This document shows positions 338-14,274 of a stretch of 35,599 nucleotides of DNA, piece after piece; within the stretch, counting starts at the first letter, position 1; every line of letters starts with the position of its first letter. Where the stretch lies: contig JAOUHF010000014.1 in assembly GCA_029865325.1 (NCBI GenBank), positions 1 to 35,599 on the forward strand, read 5' to 3'. The notes below the pieces were generated by a model, which was not told where the DNA came from, searched no databases, and worked only from the letters and a program-made list of their open reading frames with translations. The DNA is from Thermoleophilia bacterium. GTDB lineage: Bacteria > Actinomycetota > Thermoleophilia > Gaiellales > Gaiellaceae. The translations under genes were made by a program, and so were the position numbers.

Positions 338-1146
338 TGCTCGACGACGCCGTTCGCCGAATCAGAGAGGCCACCGACCTCGAGCCACGCGTTGGCGTCG
401 TTCTCGGCAGCGGGCTCGGTGGACTCGCCGACGCGCTCGAGAGTCGGGTGGAGATTCCGTACGACGACATTCCGGGCTGGCCAACCTCGACCGCCGTCGG
501 TCATGCGGGCGTGCTCGTTCTCGGAGAGGTCGATGGCGTTGCGATCGCGGTTATGCGCGGACGCGCTCACCTCTACGAAGGAGTCGGCGCAGATCGAGCG
601 GTGTTCGGCGTGCGCGTTCTCGGACGACTCGGCGTACGAACACTGGTCGTGACCAACGCGGCCGGCGGGATCAACGAGGCGTACCGGCCGGGCATGCTCG
701 TGTTGATCTCCGACCACGTGAACCTGCAGGGAGCGTCGCCGCTCGTCGGAACGAACGACGAGGAGCTCGGGCCGCGCTTTCCGGACATGAGCGACGCATA
801 CGATCCCGAGCTGCGTCGCCTGGCGCGTGAGGCCGCGGGGCGGCTCGGCATTGAGCTTCCCGAGGGCGTCTACGCCGCCTGGCTCGGCCCGCAGTTCGAG
901 ACGCCGGCTGAGATCCGCTTCATGCGAGCGGTCGGAGGTGATCTCGCCGGCATGTCGACGGTTCCCGAGGTGATCGCCGCTCGGCACATGGGTGTTCGCT
1001 GCCTCGGCATCTCTGTCGTCACGAACATGGCGGCCGGGGTCCTGCCGGAGAAGATCGACCACAGCGCCGTTCTCGAAGTGGGCGCACGCGCCGCGGGGTC
1101 GCTGACCGCGCTTCTGCGCGAGCTCGTTCCTACACTCTCTGCGTGA
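337..1146 (+). CDS. punA: Purine nucleoside phosphorylase (trimeric, PNP class)
   Basis: This 269-residue protein cleaves purine (deoxy)nucleosides with phosphate to give a free base and (deoxy)ribose 1-phosphate, in cytosolic purine salvage. The phosphate loop GSGLGG is at residues 24-29, VGHAG at about 54-58, RAHLYEG at 77-83, the purine-binding QFETPAE at 186-192 with Glu188, GMSTVPE at 205-211, and VTNMAAGV with Asn230. The Asn and Glu pair is typical of the trimeric 6-oxopurine (inosine/guanosine) enzymes, and the length is normal. The ATG at 337 overlaps the previous stop by one base, and the end overlaps selA by four bases (GTGA). It therefore sits inside one translationally coupled operon with the selenocysteine genes. 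I see no functional link between purine salvage and selenium, so the grouping may be positional only. Confidence 0.95.
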   Translation: MLDDAVRRIREATDLEPRVGVVLGSGLGGLADALESRVEIPYDDIPGWPTSTAVGHAGVLVLGEVDGVAIAVMRGRAHLYEGVGADRAVFGVRVLGRLGVRTLVVTNAAGGINEAYRPGMLVLISDHVNLQGASPLVGTNDEELGPRFPDMSDAYDPELRRLAREAAGRLGIELPEGVYAAWLGPQFETPAEIRFMRAVGGDLAGMSTVPEVIAARHMGVRCLGISVVTNMAAGVLPEKIDHSAVLEVGARAAGSLTALLRELVPTLSA

Positions 1147-2444
1147 AACTTCGCGATCTGCCCTCGGTCGACGAGCTGCTGCGGGACGAGCGGCTGGCCG
1201 CCGAGCCGCACGAACTGACCGTCACGGCGGCGCGCGCGGTGCTCGATCGGGCTCGGAAAGAGATTCAAGCCGGCGCCATGCCTGGCCCGCTCGTCGACGC
1301 CGTGCTCGCGGAGCTGGCCGGCGCCCGGGAGCCATCACTTCGCCGTGTGCTGAATGCCACCGGCGTGCTCGTGCACACGAATCTGGGTCGCGCCCCTCTG
1401 GCCGAGGCTGCGCTTGCGCGCGTCGTCGAGGTCGGGGGCGGTTACTCGAATCTCGAGTACGACCTCGCTCGTGGTGAGCGCGGCTCGCGGCAGGACCACC
1501 TCGCGCCGCTCCTCCGACGGCTGACCGGAGCGGAGGCTGCGCTCGTCGTCAACAACAACGCAGCTGCTGTGCTGCTCGCCCTCGCCGCGCTGGCTGAAGG
1601 GCGTGAAGTCATCGTGTCTCGCGGTGAGCTCATCGAGATTGGCGACGGCTTCCGCATCCCCGACGTCCTGGCTCGCTCCGGGGCGAGTCTCGTCGAGGTG
1701 GGAACGACGAACCGAACAAGGGCGACCGACTACGAGCGCGCGATTGGCCCGGAAACAGCGGTTCTCCTCCGTGTACACCAGTCGAACTTCCGCGTCGTCG
1801 GTTTCTCCGAGCGGCCGCAGCTCACCGCGCTCGCCGAAGTCGCGCGACGGCACGAGCTGCCGCTCGTCGACGACCTCGGCTCGGGCGCACTGGTGGCAGT
1901 GGGAGACGAGCCGACTCCGGCGGAAAGCCTGCGCGCGGGGGCGGATCTCGTGAGCTTCTCGGGCGACAAGCTCCTCGGCGGGCCGCAGGCGGGCGTGGTG
2001 GTGGGGCGCGCCAACCTCGTCGAGCGGCTGCGACAGCACCCACTCCAGCGAGCACTGCGTGCCGACAAGCTCACGCTCGCGGCTCTCGAGGGCACGCTCT
2101 CGGTCTCTCTCGATCCCGACGCAAGAGACCAGATCCCTGTGCTTCGCATGCTTCACGAACCGCTCGAGGCGGTGCAAGCGCGGGCCGAGTATCTGGCCGC
2201 ACTCGTCGGCGGAGAGGTCGAGGAGACCGTGGCGCGCGTGGGCGGCGGAGCGCTCCCGCTCGCCGAGCTTCCGAGCGCCGCGTGCGCGGTCGAGGAGTCG
2301 CTGGCCGAGCCGCTGCGCCTCGGCGATTCGCCGGTGATCTCCCTCGTCCGCGACGGCCGCACGCTCCTCGACTGCCGCACCCTCACCGATGCGGAGATCG
2401 ACGAGGTCGCCGGGGCGGTTCGTGCGGCCCGACGCGATGCGTAG
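1143..2444 (+). CDS. selA: L-seryl-tRNA(Sec) selenium transferase
   Basis: SelA is a PLP enzyme that converts seryl-tRNA(Sec) to selenocysteinyl-tRNA(Sec) using selenophosphate. The 433 residues are close to the usual family length. Visible family segments are LNATGVLVHTNLGRAPL (about 70-86), NLEYDLARGERGSR (103-116), VVNNNAAAVLLAL (135-147), EVGTTNRTR (185-193), VHQSNFRVVGF (211-221) and DDLGSGAL (243-250). The PLP Schiff-base lysine is Lys276 in SFSGDKLLGGPQAG. The GTG start at 1143 overlaps the phosphorylase stop as GTGA. Downstream, 56 nt separate it from selB; this spacer contains a short GC hairpin (CCGGGC-GT-GCCCGG, 2448-2461) before the selB ribosome site. tRNA-Sec and a selenoprotein gene in the same window confirm that the function is used. 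Confidence 0.97.
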   Translation: MKLRDLPSVDELLRDERLAAEPHELTVTAARAVLDRARKEIQAGAMPGPLVDAVLAELAGAREPSLRRVLNATGVLVHTNLGRAPLAEAALARVVEVGGGYSNLEYDLARGERGSRQDHLAPLLRRLTGAEAALVVNNNAAAVLLALAALAEGREVIVSRGELIEIGDGFRIPDVLARSGASLVEVGTTNRTRATDYERAIGPETAVLLRVHQSNFRVVGFSERPQLTALAEVARRHELPLVDDLGSGALVAVGDEPTPAESLRAGADLVSFSGDKLLGGPQAGVVVGRANLVERLRQHPLQRALRADKLTLAALEGTLSVSLDPDARDQIPVLRMLHEPLEAVQARAEYLAALVGGEVEETVARVGGGALPLAELPSAACAVEESLAEPLRLGDSPVISLVRDGRTLLDCRTLTDAEIDEVAGAVRAARRDA

Positions 2445-2500: not shown

Positions 2501-4192
2501 ATGCCGCTGACGGTCGGAACTGCAGGCCACATCGACCACGGGAAGACGTGGCTCGTCCGGGCGCTCACGGGTAAGGACACCGATCGCCTGCCCGAGGAGC
2601 AGCGACGTGGGATCTCTATCGATCTCGGGTACGCGCCACTCGAGCTCGACGACGGTCGGACGCTCTCGGTCGTGGACGTTCCCGGGCACGAGCGCTTCGT
2701 CCGTACGATGGTCGCCGGCGCGACCGGCATCGATCTCTTCCTGCTCGTGGTCGATGCCGGCGAGGGCGCCCGCCCGCAAACGCACGAGCACCTCGCGATC
2801 CTCCGACTGCTCGGCGTCGAGAACGGCGTCGTTGCGGTGACGAAGATCGACGCTCTCGATCCCGAGACAGTCGAGCTCGCTGCGGAGGAGAGCCGAGACC
2901 TCGTGCCGGGGGCCGAGGTTGTACCGGTCAGCGCGAAGACCGGGGAGAGGCTCGACGAGCTCCGGACCGCGCTGGGACGTGCAGCCGATCGCGTGGAGCG
3001 CGTGCGTGCGAACCGGCCGACGCGGTTGTATGTGGACCGCTCGTTCTCGCTGCGGGGGTTCGGCACGGTCGTAACGGGCACACTCTGGTCGGGCTCTATT
3101 GGAGAAGGCGACGAGCTGCGGATCGAACCCGCGGGTCGTTCGGTCCGCGTCCGCAGCGTCCAAGTCCACGATCGCGACGTCGAGCGTGCCGAATCGGGGC
3201 AGCGGGTCGCCGTCAGCCTCCCGGGTGTCGAGCGCCGAGAGGTGCGTAGGGGGGACGCCCTGGTGGTGCCGGGCGCGTACCCGACCTCGTATCGCCTCGA
3301 CGTCGCCCTCGAGGAGCTCGAGCCGATTCCGCCCGACGCGCGCATCCTGATTCATGTCGGCACGGGCCAGTCCGCCGGGCGGGTCGTCCGCGTCGGTGAG
3401 CGCTTCGCGCAGCTCCGCCTTGCCGCCCCCGTCATCGCAGCCCGTGGCGACCGCGTGATCCTCAGGGGTGAGACCACCTTGGGCGGGGGGACGGTCCTCG
3501 ATCCCGCGCCCCCACGGCACCGCGACCATACGAGGATGGAGCTCCTGAAGCGCGGTGATGTAGCCGCGACTATCCACGCGCCCGTCCTCGTGGAGTCGCT
3601 TCGGTTCGTGCTCGACGGAGAGCCCGAGGGAGTCGTGCGCGGCGGGCCGTGGGCGTTCTCTGGCCTGTGGCTCGCGGAGCTCGAGAGCGAGCTTCGAGCC
3701 AGCCTCCAGGCCGCCGATCCGATCGACCCCGGCATTCCACCGCCGAGCGCCCCGTGGGCAGTCGACGTGCTTCCCCTATTGGCGTTCGAGCGTCGAGGCG
3801 CGAAGCTCTACCTCCCCGGTGCGGAGGCCACGCTCGGGGCTCGAAGCGCGGAGGCCGAAGCGCTCGAGCGGGAACTGGCGGGTATCGGTGTTCGCGCGAC
3901 GAAGGTTGAGGACAACGAGCTCGCCCGGTTTCTCGAGGCGAGCGGGCGGCTCGTGCGGCTCGGCGACGGGTACGCGATCGGTGCCGAGCAGTACGAGGTC
4001 GCGAGGGACGTCATGCTCACCGAATGCCGTAGCGCGGGTGAGATCACGCTCGCTCGGTTCCGCGACCTCGCCGGCACCGGGCGGCGTGACGCTCAGCTCC
4101 TCCTCGAACGGTTCGACCAGGACGGCCTCACTCGCCGGATTGGCGACCGCCGAGTGCTTCGCCGAGCCGCTACGAGCAGCTCGTCGTCGTGA
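2501..4192 (+). CDS. selB: Selenocysteine-specific elongation factor SelB
   Basis: SelB is an EF-Tu-like GTPase that delivers Sec-tRNA(Sec) to UGA codons marked by a SECIS hairpin, which it binds through C-terminal winged helices. The ATG at 2501 was chosen because GTP-binding homology begins at once and GGCGGAGG lies just upstream; the frame is open further upstream but runs through selA. G motifs in the 563 residues: G1 GHIDHGKT (9-16), G2 near RGISIDLGYA (36-45), G3 DVPGHERF (59-66), G4 TKID (114-117), G5 SAKTGE. Domains 2 and 3 follow (RLYVDRSFSLRGFGTVVTGT), then a winged-helix region to the serine-rich end. It is somewhat shorter than E. coli SelB (614). The 3' end overlaps the convergent pilin-like gene by 23 bp. 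Confidence 0.96.
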   Translation: MPLTVGTAGHIDHGKTWLVRALTGKDTDRLPEEQRRGISIDLGYAPLELDDGRTLSVVDVPGHERFVRTMVAGATGIDLFLLVVDAGEGARPQTHEHLAILRLLGVENGVVAVTKIDALDPETVELAAEESRDLVPGAEVVPVSAKTGERLDELRTALGRAADRVERVRANRPTRLYVDRSFSLRGFGTVVTGTLWSGSIGEGDELRIEPAGRSVRVRSVQVHDRDVERAESGQRVAVSLPGVERREVRRGDALVVPGAYPTSYRLDVALEELEPIPPDARILIHVGTGQSAGRVVRVGERFAQLRLAAPVIAARGDRVILRGETTLGGGTVLDPAPPRHRDHTRMELLKRGDVAATIHAPVLVESLRFVLDGEPEGVVRGGPWAFSGLWLAELESELRASLQAADPIDPGIPPPSAPWAVDVLPLLAFERRGAKLYLPGAEATLGARSAEAEALERELAGIGVRATKVEDNELARFLEASGRLVRLGDGYAIGAEQYEVARDVMLTECRSAGEITLARFRDLAGTGRRDAQLLLERFDQDGLTRRIGDRRVLRRAATSSSSS

Positions 4193-4529
4193 TCGGTGCG
4201 GTCGGTCCGTTCTTGAACCACGAGCGCCCGTCGACGGTGCTCTTCACGCAGTAGCCGGATCCACTCGCTGAGACGATCTCGATCCCCTGAACGCCCTTGC
4301 TGTATGAGCTCTGAAGGATCGCCAGTGTCATGCCCGTGAACTTGCCGTTGTCGAGGTTGTAGGCCTGAAGGGCAGGCACCGCGACGTCGATGTTCGACTT
4401 GGCGGCGGCGTCGCCAGCGCGGACGCGTGCGCTGGTGCTGAACCCGACGGCGATCGCGATGAGGACAGCCATGATGATCAGCACGGCGAGCATCTCGAGT
4501 AGCGTGAATCCGTCCTCCTTCCGCCGCAT
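4170..4529 (-). CDS. Type IV pilin-like / pseudopilin protein
   Basis: This 119-residue protein opens with a class III signal: a short basic leader (MRRKEDG), then FTLLEM, then a hydrophobic helix (LAVLIIMAVLIAIAVGF). That is the prepilin peptidase site with the invariant Glu at +5 of the mature protein, as in PilA/PilE and GspG. The remainder is a small globular domain with two cysteines (YCVKS near 93 and the C-terminal TSCS) that could form the usual pilin disulfide. No prepilin peptidase or assembly ATPase lies nearby, so it must use machinery encoded elsewhere. The start codon has no good Shine-Dalgarno; an AAGGAGG lies inside codons 4-6. A TAGGCA box 6 nt upstream is a possible -10. The stop lies 23 bp inside the convergent selB end. 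Confidence 0.82.
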   Translation of the reverse strand: MRRKEDGFTLLEMLAVLIIMAVLIAIAVGFSTSARVRAGDAAAKSNIDVAVPALQAYNLDNGKFTGMTLAILQSSYSKGVQGIEIVSASGSGYCVKSTVDGRSWFKNGPTAPITTTSCS

Positions 4530-4631: not shown

Positions 4632-4663
4632 GACCGGAATTCCGCGCTAGCGCATTTCCGGTC
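4632..4663 (-). terminator. Hairpin straddling the selenoprotein stop codon
   Basis: GACCGGAA (4632-4639) and TTCCGGTC (4656-4663) are perfect 8-bp inverted arms. The loop contains a second palindrome, GCGCTAGCGC (4644-4653), that includes the TAG stop. On the minus strand this would fold at the very end of the selenoprotein mRNA. No U-tract follows, so a terminator or mRNA-stabilising role is only a guess. Confidence 0.35.
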
Positions 4664-5207
4664 TTGCGCACCAGTCCGGCTCGTCGTCGATCCCCACGCC
4701 GTCCGCCACGCGCGTCACGTAGTTGAAGTAGCCGATCACCTGGATCGCATCCGAGATCGCCGGGTCGTCCAGGCCCTGCATGTGCAGGGCGTCAATGTCC
4801 GCTTGGTCAACCTCCGACGCGAGATTGGTGAGCTTCACGGCGAAGTCACACAGCGCACGCTCCCGGGGCGAGAGATCCGCCTTGCGGTAGTCGTGCATGG
4901 CGTGATGCGCCACTTCGTTCTCGGCGCCCTCGGCACGGAGGTCGTCGGCGTGTGCCCGCGTTCAGTAGTGGCAGCTCTGCTCCGCGGAGGTCACTGTCGC
5001 CAGAAGCTCACGCTCGCGGCGCGAGAGACCGGACTCGCCGAACATGATCTCCTTGTAGAGCTCCATCGACGCCCGAAGCACACCGGGCCGAAGGCTCATC
5101 GCCTTCAGGATGTTGAAGATCTTCCCCGCGCGCTCGACTGCCGCGTCGTACTCCTGCTTGAGCGCGCCCTCGGCCTCGCTCTCGTCGATGAGCCTTATGT
5201 GTGCCAC
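4647..5207 (-). CDS. AhpD/CMD-family selenoprotein (peroxidase-related), in-frame TGA = Sec82
   Basis: Read through a TGA at 4962-4964, this is one 186-residue protein of the alkylhydroperoxidase AhpD / carboxymuconolactone decarboxylase family. The halves before the TGA (81 residues) and after it (16 further codons, then ADLSPRERALCDFAVKLT) are in the same frame and together have normal family length. The TGA falls at the second Cys of the redox motif: Cys79-His80-Tyr81-Sec82, with His86 four residues later and Glu67 twelve before Cys79. Compared with M. tuberculosis AhpD (Glu118, Cys130, Cys133, His137), Sec replaces the peroxidatic Cys133. A SECIS-like hairpin follows the TGA, and selA, selB and tRNA-Sec are in the window. 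GTG start 2 nt after the mmsA stop. Likely role: thiol-dependent (hydro)peroxide reduction; substrate unknown. AhpD-like CxxU selenoproteins are known from selenoproteome surveys. Confidence 0.93.
4922..4947 (-). promoter_or_regulatory. Candidate bacterial SECIS element
   Basis: On the minus strand, nucleotides 15-24 after the TGA (CGACGACCUC) pair with nucleotides 31-40 (GAGGGCGCCG), giving eight base pairs with two mismatches around a six-base apical loop CGUGCC. The loop has G at its second position, 26 nt after the UGA. This fits the general bacterial SECIS pattern: stem just downstream of UGA, small apical loop with a G in its first two bases, about 16-37 nt from the codon. It lies within coding sequence, as bacterial SECIS elements must. 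The folding was done by eye. Confidence 0.7.
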
Positions 5208-5209
5208 AC

Positions 5210-6721
5210 CTATCGCGTTTGCGGGAAGCCGAGGTCGACCTTGCTCGTCGTGGGATCTGGCCAGCGGCTCGTGACTGCCTTCGTCCGCGTGTAGAAGTCG
5301 ATCCCCTCCGGCCCGTAGATGTGCCGGTCGCCGAAGAGCGAGCTCTTCCAGCCGCCGAATGAGTAGTAGGCGACGGGAACCGGAATCGGCACGTTGATCC
5401 CGACCATGCCGACGTTCACGTCGAATTGGAACTGTCGCGCGACCCCGCCGTCGCGTGTGAAGAGGGCGACGCCGTTGCCGTACTGGTTGTCGTTCACGAG
5501 CCTGAGCGCCTCGTCGTACGTCTCGACGCGAACAACCGAGAGCACGGGCCCGAAGATCTCGTCGCGGTACGCGTCCATCTCTGGCGTGACGTCGTCGAGC
5601 AGCGAGACACCGAGGAAGAAGCCGTTTCCCTCCGGCGCCGTCTCACGCCCGTCGGCGACCATGGTGGCGCCTTGCGCTGGGCCGGAATCCAGGTAGGACG
5701 CGACCTTGTCACGGTGCTCGCGGGTTACGAGCGGCCCCATCTCGGATGTGGGATCGAGGCCGTCTCCGACCTTGACGTTCGGCAGGCGCTCCTTGATCGC
5801 CCCGACGAGCTCGTCGCCGACGCCTCCGACTGCAACGAGCACGGAGATCGCCATGCAGCGCTCGCCCGCAGAGCCGTAGCCCGCGCTCACTGCAGCGTCC
5901 GCGGCCATGTCGATGTCAGCGTCGGGCAGGACGATCATGTGGTTCTTCGCGCCTCCGAGCGCCTGCACCCGCTTTCCGGCCTTCGTCCCCGTCTCGTACA
6001 CGTAGCGCGCGATGGGAGTCGAGCCGACGAAGCTCACCGCGGCGAGGTCCGGGTGCTCGAGGATCCGGTCGACGGCGACCTTGTCGCCGTTCACGACGTT
6101 GAAGACGCCGTCGGGGACGCCCGCTTCCTTGAGGAGCTCGGCCGTGAGGATGGAAGCGGAGGGATCCTTCTCGGACGGCTTCAGGACGAAGGTGTTCCCG
6201 CACGCGAGGGCGGGGGCCCACATCCACATGGGCACCATCGCGGGGAAGTTGAAGGGGGTGATCCCGGCGACGACGCCGAGCGGCTGGCGGATCGAGTAGA
6301 CGTCGACTCCCGTGGAGGCCTGCTCCGAGTACTCGCCTTTCAGCAGCGTCGGGATGCCGCACACGTACTCGATGACCTCGATCCCGCGCTGCACCTCGCC
6401 CAGCGCGTCCGAGAGCACCTTCCCGTGCTCGGCCGTGAGCAGGCGCGCGAGATCCTCCCGATGCGCGTCCATGAGCTGGTAGATGCGGAACATGAGGTCG
6501 GCGCGCTTCGAGAGCGACCATGTGCGCCACTCCGAAAACGCTTCCTTCGCCGCGGCGACGGCACGGTCAATCTCCTCGACGGACGCAAAGTCGACCTCCC
6601 CCGACTGCTCGCCGGTGGCCGGGTTGTAGACCGGGCCTTTGCGCTCTGACTCGCCCGGCACGCTTTCTCCGCCGATCCAATGGCCGATCAGCTTCAGCTC
6701 TGTCGTCACCGCTGCATTCAT
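5210..6721 (-). CDS. mmsA: CoA-acylating methylmalonate-semialdehyde dehydrogenase
   Basis: This 503-residue aldehyde dehydrogenase oxidises (methyl)malonate semialdehyde to propionyl- or acetyl-CoA with NAD+ and CoA, in valine, thymine, beta-alanine or inositol breakdown. Visible features are ITPFNFPAMVPMW with the oxyanion Asn158, KPSEKDPS (181-188), FVGSTPIARYVY (231-242) and GSAGERCMA with the catalytic Cys289. The usual ALDH general-base Glu segment is replaced by GGAKNH (256-261), which is characteristic of this CoA-acylating subfamily. A GGGAGG ribosome site lies 5 nt before the ATG. A TACGCT -10-like box (6756-6761) sits in the short divergent promoter shared with the photolyase gene. 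The selenoprotein gene starts 2 nt after its stop, so the two are almost certainly co-transcribed. Confidence 0.95.
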   Translation of the reverse strand: MNAAVTTELKLIGHWIGGESVPGESERKGPVYNPATGEQSGEVDFASVEEIDRAVAAAKEAFSEWRTWSLSKRADLMFRIYQLMDAHREDLARLLTAEHGKVLSDALGEVQRGIEVIEYVCGIPTLLKGEYSEQASTGVDVYSIRQPLGVVAGITPFNFPAMVPMWMWAPALACGNTFVLKPSEKDPSASILTAELLKEAGVPDGVFNVVNGDKVAVDRILEHPDLAAVSFVGSTPIARYVYETGTKAGKRVQALGGAKNHMIVLPDADIDMAADAAVSAGYGSAGERCMAISVLVAVGGVGDELVGAIKERLPNVKVGDGLDPTSEMGPLVTREHRDKVASYLDSGPAQGATMVADGRETAPEGNGFFLGVSLLDDVTPEMDAYRDEIFGPVLSVVRVETYDEALRLVNDNQYGNGVALFTRDGGVARQFQFDVNVGMVGINVPIPVPVAYYSFGGWKSSLFGDRHIYGPEGIDFYTRTKAVTSRWPDPTTSKVDLGFPQTR

Positions 6722-14181: not shown

Positions 14182-14274
14182 CGGAGCGGCGCCGGAGTCG
14201 AACCGACCGAGCCGTGGGTTGCACGACCGCACGAGTTTTGAAGACCCGCTGGGCCACCGGGCCCATGCCGCTCC
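14182..14274 (-). tRNA. selC: tRNA-Sec (UCA anticodon)
   Basis: This 93-nt gene (without CCA, which is not encoded) folds as a bacterial selenocysteine tRNA. The acceptor stem is 8 bp (GGAGCGGC with GCCGCTCC), the D stem is 6 bp (TGGGCC/GGCCCA) with a four-base loop CGGT, and the anticodon stem is 5 bp (CGGGT/ACTCG) around loop CTTCAAA. The anticodon UCA corresponds to plus-strand 14239-14241. A long variable arm follows (GTCGTG/CACGGC around CAACC), then the T arm GTCGG-TTCGACT-CCGGC. The 8+5 bp acceptor/T helix, extended D stem, long extra arm and G discriminator base separate it from an ordinary tRNA-Ser or opal suppressor. SelA, SelB and a selenoprotein gene lie in the same window. Confidence 0.96.

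Follow-up and report, generated by a model that had tools for sequence, protein, structure and literature searches.

AhpD-like selenoproteins are already known. A set of 27 AhpD-like sequences with the CxxU motif was reported from the Sargasso Sea in 2005 (PMC1088965), followed in 2008 by two AhpD-like types in the GOS data, with 299 and 70 sequences and including 'AhpD-like 1' (PMC2398784). A 2026 review and catalogue of selenoproteins includes an entry 'AhpD-like protein, TIGR01926, CxxU' (PMC13188914). A relative without selenocysteine (Sec) is AhpD of Mycobacterium tuberculosis, which doubles as an adaptor protein for AhpC and whose proton relay consists of Glu118, Cys130, His132, Cys133 and His137 (PMC3141380). 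In the published model of the bacterial Sec insertion sequence (bSECIS), an apical loop of 3-9 nt with a G in its first two positions is carried on a stem of 4-16 bp, 16-37 nt from the UGA (PMC13188914).

Here, we describe an AhpD-like gene in a contig of a Gaiellaceae genome (Thermoleophilia), of which a stretch of 35,599 nucleotides, referred to as the window, was analysed (Table 1). The gene shares its subfamily, its motif, Sec at the second motif position and a putative SECIS within the coding sequence with the catalogued TIGR01926/COG2128 CxxU selenoprotein; it belongs to a family known since 2005 and does not define a new selenoprotein family. However, the published sets searched come mainly from marine metagenomes, whereas this copy lies next to selAB in a soil-type Gaiellaceae genome. 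Neither Gaiellaceae nor Thermoleophilia is mentioned in the selenoprotein papers searched. Two short open reading frames at this locus very probably constitute one TIGR01926 AhpD-like gene for a redox enzyme, in which UGA 82 would be decoded as Sec with the help of a SECIS-like signal downstream.

Table 1. Features of the selenoprotein locus (window coordinates)
Feature	Position	Strand	Remarks
selA, selenocysteine synthase	1143..2444	+	TIGR00474, 525 bits (cutoff 268)
selB, selenocysteine-specific elongation factor	about 2501..4192	+	TIGR00475, 344 bits (cutoff 242)
AhpD-like (TIGR01926) selenoprotein gene	4647..5207	-	186 codons; starts with GTG (approximate assignment) and stops with TAG
Candidate bSECIS	4923..4946	-	Strongest synonymous conservation, codons +6 to +13 after the TGA (17 orthologues)
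Putative selenocysteine codon 82	4962..4964	-	In-frame TGA, second position of CxxU
mmsA-like gene, CoA-acylating methylmalonate-semialdehyde dehydrogenase	5210..6721	-	Stops 2 nt before the GTG start of the selenoprotein gene
tRNA-Sec, anticodon TCA	14182..14274	-	ARAGORN; Rfam RF01852, 64.1 bits (cutoff 47)

Reading frame and conservation of the TGA codon

The minus-strand open reading frames 4962-5207 and 4647-4913 occupy one frame, and their translations join into a protein of 186 residues with a single recoded codon, U82, as the original prediction had proposed. The active-site string of the joined protein is S-C79-H-Y-U82-T-R-A-H86. Glu67, located 12 residues before C79, and His86, four residues after U82, are found where they had been predicted. 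In an alignment of 29 sequences, E67, C79, U/C82 and H86 do not vary. An open downstream half is weak proof by itself, since a random frame of its 104 codons would stay open with a chance of about 6% at this base composition; the case for a single gene rests on homology.

A protein search across 103 genomes of the same family (Gaiellaceae) returned 17 close orthologues, our own copy counted, at 59-80% identity. All 17, spread over many genera, carry TGA at the codon-82 column, and it is the sole TGA inside the aligned gene. A homologue from an Acidobacteriota MAG (Terriglobia; 53% identity) also has TGA at this column. More distant homologues have either TGA or a Cys codon there, with TGC or TGT in six, which bears out the placement of the TGA at the second Cys of a CxxC motif (Cys-His-Tyr-[TGA]) and the expectation that a homologue search would align Cys with position 82. 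Among the 33 other homologous loci examined (one of which, from a deposited Gaiellaceae MAG, appears under two handles, L005 and L033), the column holds TGA or a Cys codon in every case and the downstream half is always retained. Two observations had been named as evidence against the prediction, a stop or an unrelated residue in place of Cys/Sec and, in close relatives, a missing downstream half; neither was seen. On the tree of Sec and Cys forms the two states interchange, with approximately four changes, but two of its branches, L032 and L035, are long, and too few rows bear on the origin. The same bacterial family contains a second TIGR01926-like clade (L006, L027, L029 and L030 versus L023, L025, L026, L028 and L031) in which Sec and Cys forms interchange.

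Standard annotation would split the gene at the TGA, as would be expected of an AhpD-like pseudogene broken by a nonsense mutation. However, orthologues from many genera retain this TGA at 59-80% identity, both halves have the GC3 of a gene, and omega is similarly low before and after the TGA (0.11-0.31 versus 0.11-0.34 in eight pairs; 0.30 versus 0.37 in a ninth), with both halves under equal purifying selection. The conserved TGA and the low downstream omega refute the pseudogene reading, which we rejected as highly improbable.

Family, fold and active site

The joined protein matches the TIGR01926 model at 149.5 bits (cutoff 81.8) over residues 4-177 in one stretch, and PF02627 also matches. 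Its score of 21.3 bits against the model of AhpD proper, TIGR00777, is far below the cutoff of 191.95 bits. Similarly, it scores 76.1 bits against a cutoff of 175 bits for NF041238 (AhpD_rel_CFYUT (seleno)protein), a related CxxU selenoprotein family of which it is not a member.

An AF2 model of the joined chain (mean pLDDT 94.7) consists of one compact helical domain that superimposes on 2prr and 6k40 with Z 24.8 over 181 residues. The Cys-containing TIGR01926 'peroxidase-related' structures 2prr, 6k40, 2oyo, 2pfx and 3c1l adopt this fold along their whole length (Z 24.3-24.8, with 176-182 residues aligned) at 28-33% identity; the second motif position is Cys in the four compared and is predicted to be Sec here. 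M. tuberculosis AhpD (1gu9, 1knc) shares the CMD fold at Z of approximately 12, but with only 14-15% identity. The equivalents of its CxxC motif and its Glu-12/His+4 proton relay (PMC3141380) are E67, C79, U82 and H86, so that four of the five relay residues are conserved in kind, whereas His132 is replaced by Tyr, as in PA0269.

Both open reading frames exist mechanically, and they could in principle be translated separately into two functional proteins, the first a shortened N-terminal part and the second starting from a GTG at 4913. The split, however, would interrupt the helix that bears the CxxC/U active site (H80-92 of the model), the distant Cys homologues are all single chains, and the family model runs across the TGA without a break. 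Given these intact homologues, the conserved TGA column and the selection on both halves, the two-protein reading was rejected; there is very little chance that it is correct.

A candidate SECIS downstream of the TGA

Synonymous conservation in the gene peaks 18-41 nt after the TGA. In 180 windows of eight codons compared across the 17 orthologues, the four best begin 5-8 codons past the TGA. The conserved codons +6 to +13 read GAC GAC CTC CGT GCM GAG GGC GCM, of which CTC and CGT are each found in 17/17 sequences (expected pairwise identities 0.42 and 0.33) and GGC in 16/16. This pattern, as judged from the aligned codons, places an RNA-level constraint where a bacterial SECIS belongs.

A candidate hairpin, CG-A-CCTC[CGTGCC]GAGG-G-CG, lies at 4944-4925. 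Its loop is 24 nt past the UGA and has G as the second base, with U next. It agrees with the published constraints on loop, stem, G and spacing in 17/17 orthologues. The 4-bp CCTC/GAGG stem is present throughout and the loop is CGTGCM, with CGTGAC in L008 and CGTGCT in L016. The stem is short, with 2 bp beyond a mismatch following the 4 bp; in L012 a non-synonymous GGC to GTC change converts this A-G mismatch into a pair. The published energy criterion is an MFE of -7.5 kcal/mol or below (PMC13188914). With the hairpin enforced, the 45-nt region gives values of -7.2 to -15.6 and the hairpin is not the MFE fold in most orthologues, while the 24-nt region of the window sequence folds alone at -6.5. 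The candidate hairpin is no more stable than its synonymous variants, and there is almost no covariation signal for the stem because the columns are invariant. An alternative, longer hairpin starting from the CAC at +12 (loop ACGAC) is favoured in distant homologues and perfect in two of them, L032 and L034; in the close set it contains mismatches and has G only at loop position 3 (in L018 also at position 1). The short hairpin is thus presented as a candidate SECIS, the exact fold of which is not proven.

Selenocysteine decoding machinery and gene neighbourhood

The genome contains a complete Sec decoding system, with selA, selB and tRNA-Sec in the window and selD on another contig. The prediction that the first three lie within 10 kb of the gene holds, selA and selB being 0.5-4 kb away and tRNA-Sec, the farthest, approximately 9 kb. 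In addition, a gene for FdhA (formate dehydrogenase alpha subunit; G000:C61:48268-50178, L072) has an in-frame TGA at the known Sec site STUHGP; Sec decoding therefore has at least one classical client in this genome. Decoding of the UGA as another residue (e.g. Trp or Cys) by near-cognate tRNAs would fit the Cys found at this column in some homologues. It would not, however, account for a complete Sec system with a tRNA-Sec of anticodon TCA, an FdhA gene with TGA and a nucleotide constraint at the SECIS position, and we consider such decoding most unlikely. UGA 82 would instead be decoded as Sec by the genome's own SelA, SelB, tRNA-Sec and SelD, directed by the SECIS-like RNA signal just past the UGA.

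Across the family, selA was used as the marker of Sec decoding, since RF01852 gave weak matches in every one of the 103 genomes, controls included, and its presence is uninformative. Of the orthologue-bearing genomes with a completeness of 90% or more, 8/8 have selA. It was undetected in five orthologue-bearing MAGs, all less than 90% complete, two of which have a selB fragment near the gene. Genome G010, of the same genus (97% complete, single contig), has neither selA nor the AhpD-like selenoprotein gene.

The selA-selB pair is convergent with the AhpD(Sec) gene, an arrangement that recurs in another genus, g10 (L039, L041 and L044), and a selB fragment lies near the AhpD(Sec) gene in a third genus (L050). 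In genomes G040 and G041, the distance between tRNA-Sec and the gene is approximately 1 kb. A type IV pilin-like protein bearing an N-methylation motif (PF07963) is encoded on the minus strand at window positions 4170-4529, flanked by selB and the selenoprotein gene; it is also seen in L037. On the other side, the mmsA-like neighbour is kept within the genus; cotranscription and translational coupling of the two genes are probable.

Other AhpD-like selenoproteins in the family

The same genome contains a second, shorter AhpD-like selenoprotein gene of 133 codons (G000:C81:9888-10289; L064 from 4889, plus strand), with the motif CDYU and with His+4 and Glu-12 present. A hairpin of 8 perfect base pairs with the loop GGT follows, a textbook bSECIS. 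Together with FdhA and the AhpD-like CHYU gene, this brings the genome to at least three selenoprotein genes.

In four further loci (L020, L021, L022 and L024, from G023, G072, G060 and G068), an AhpD-like CHYU domain with an in-frame TGA (4/4) is fused in frame to a C-terminal domain. In L020 the N-terminal part matches TIGR01926 at 141 bits and the C-terminal domain is an NAD(P)H-hydrate epimerase (PF03853, 126 bits; TIGR00197, 120 bits); the fusions in L021, L022 and L024 resemble it by eye. Neither the 2026 selenoproteome review nor a paper search yielded any mention of such an AhpD(Sec)-NAD(P)HX-epimerase (YjeF) fusion, which may represent a new selenoprotein architecture.

Proposed function and significance

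The product of the CHYU gene is predicted to be a thiol/selenol redox enzyme with an all-helical CMD fold. Its Sec82 would be linked to Cys79 as a selenenylsulfide redox pair, and Glu67 and His86 would relay protons as proposed from their counterparts in M. tuberculosis AhpD; Sec82 may be the attacking residue. Such an enzyme would reduce hydroperoxides or hand electrons to a partner; its catalysis, substrate and reductant are all putative. A peroxidase role, and a rate advantage over Cys forms, would carry the chemistry of M. tuberculosis AhpD over to a subfamily that scores far below the model of AhpD proper. A more specific proposal is that in this lineage the protein serves acyl-CoA-forming aldehyde oxidation as a dedicated redox partner, with a short SECIS variant particular to the clade (loop CGUGCM) directing the reading of its UGA. 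This proposal, which draws on the spacing of 2 nt from the methylmalonate-semialdehyde dehydrogenase gene and the retention of the pair in the genus, is unlikely; any functional link between the two is putative. The proposed variant would be distinct from the hairpin of the genome's second AhpD-like selenoprotein gene, which is more stable.

The overall picture of selenoproteins is unchanged by this locus. Mechanical annotation would cut the gene in two, and the conserved selA-selB-AhpD(Sec) neighbourhood offers a handy annotation cue. The gene and its relatives add orthologues across one soil-type actinobacterial family to a selenoprotein family best known from marine metagenomes.
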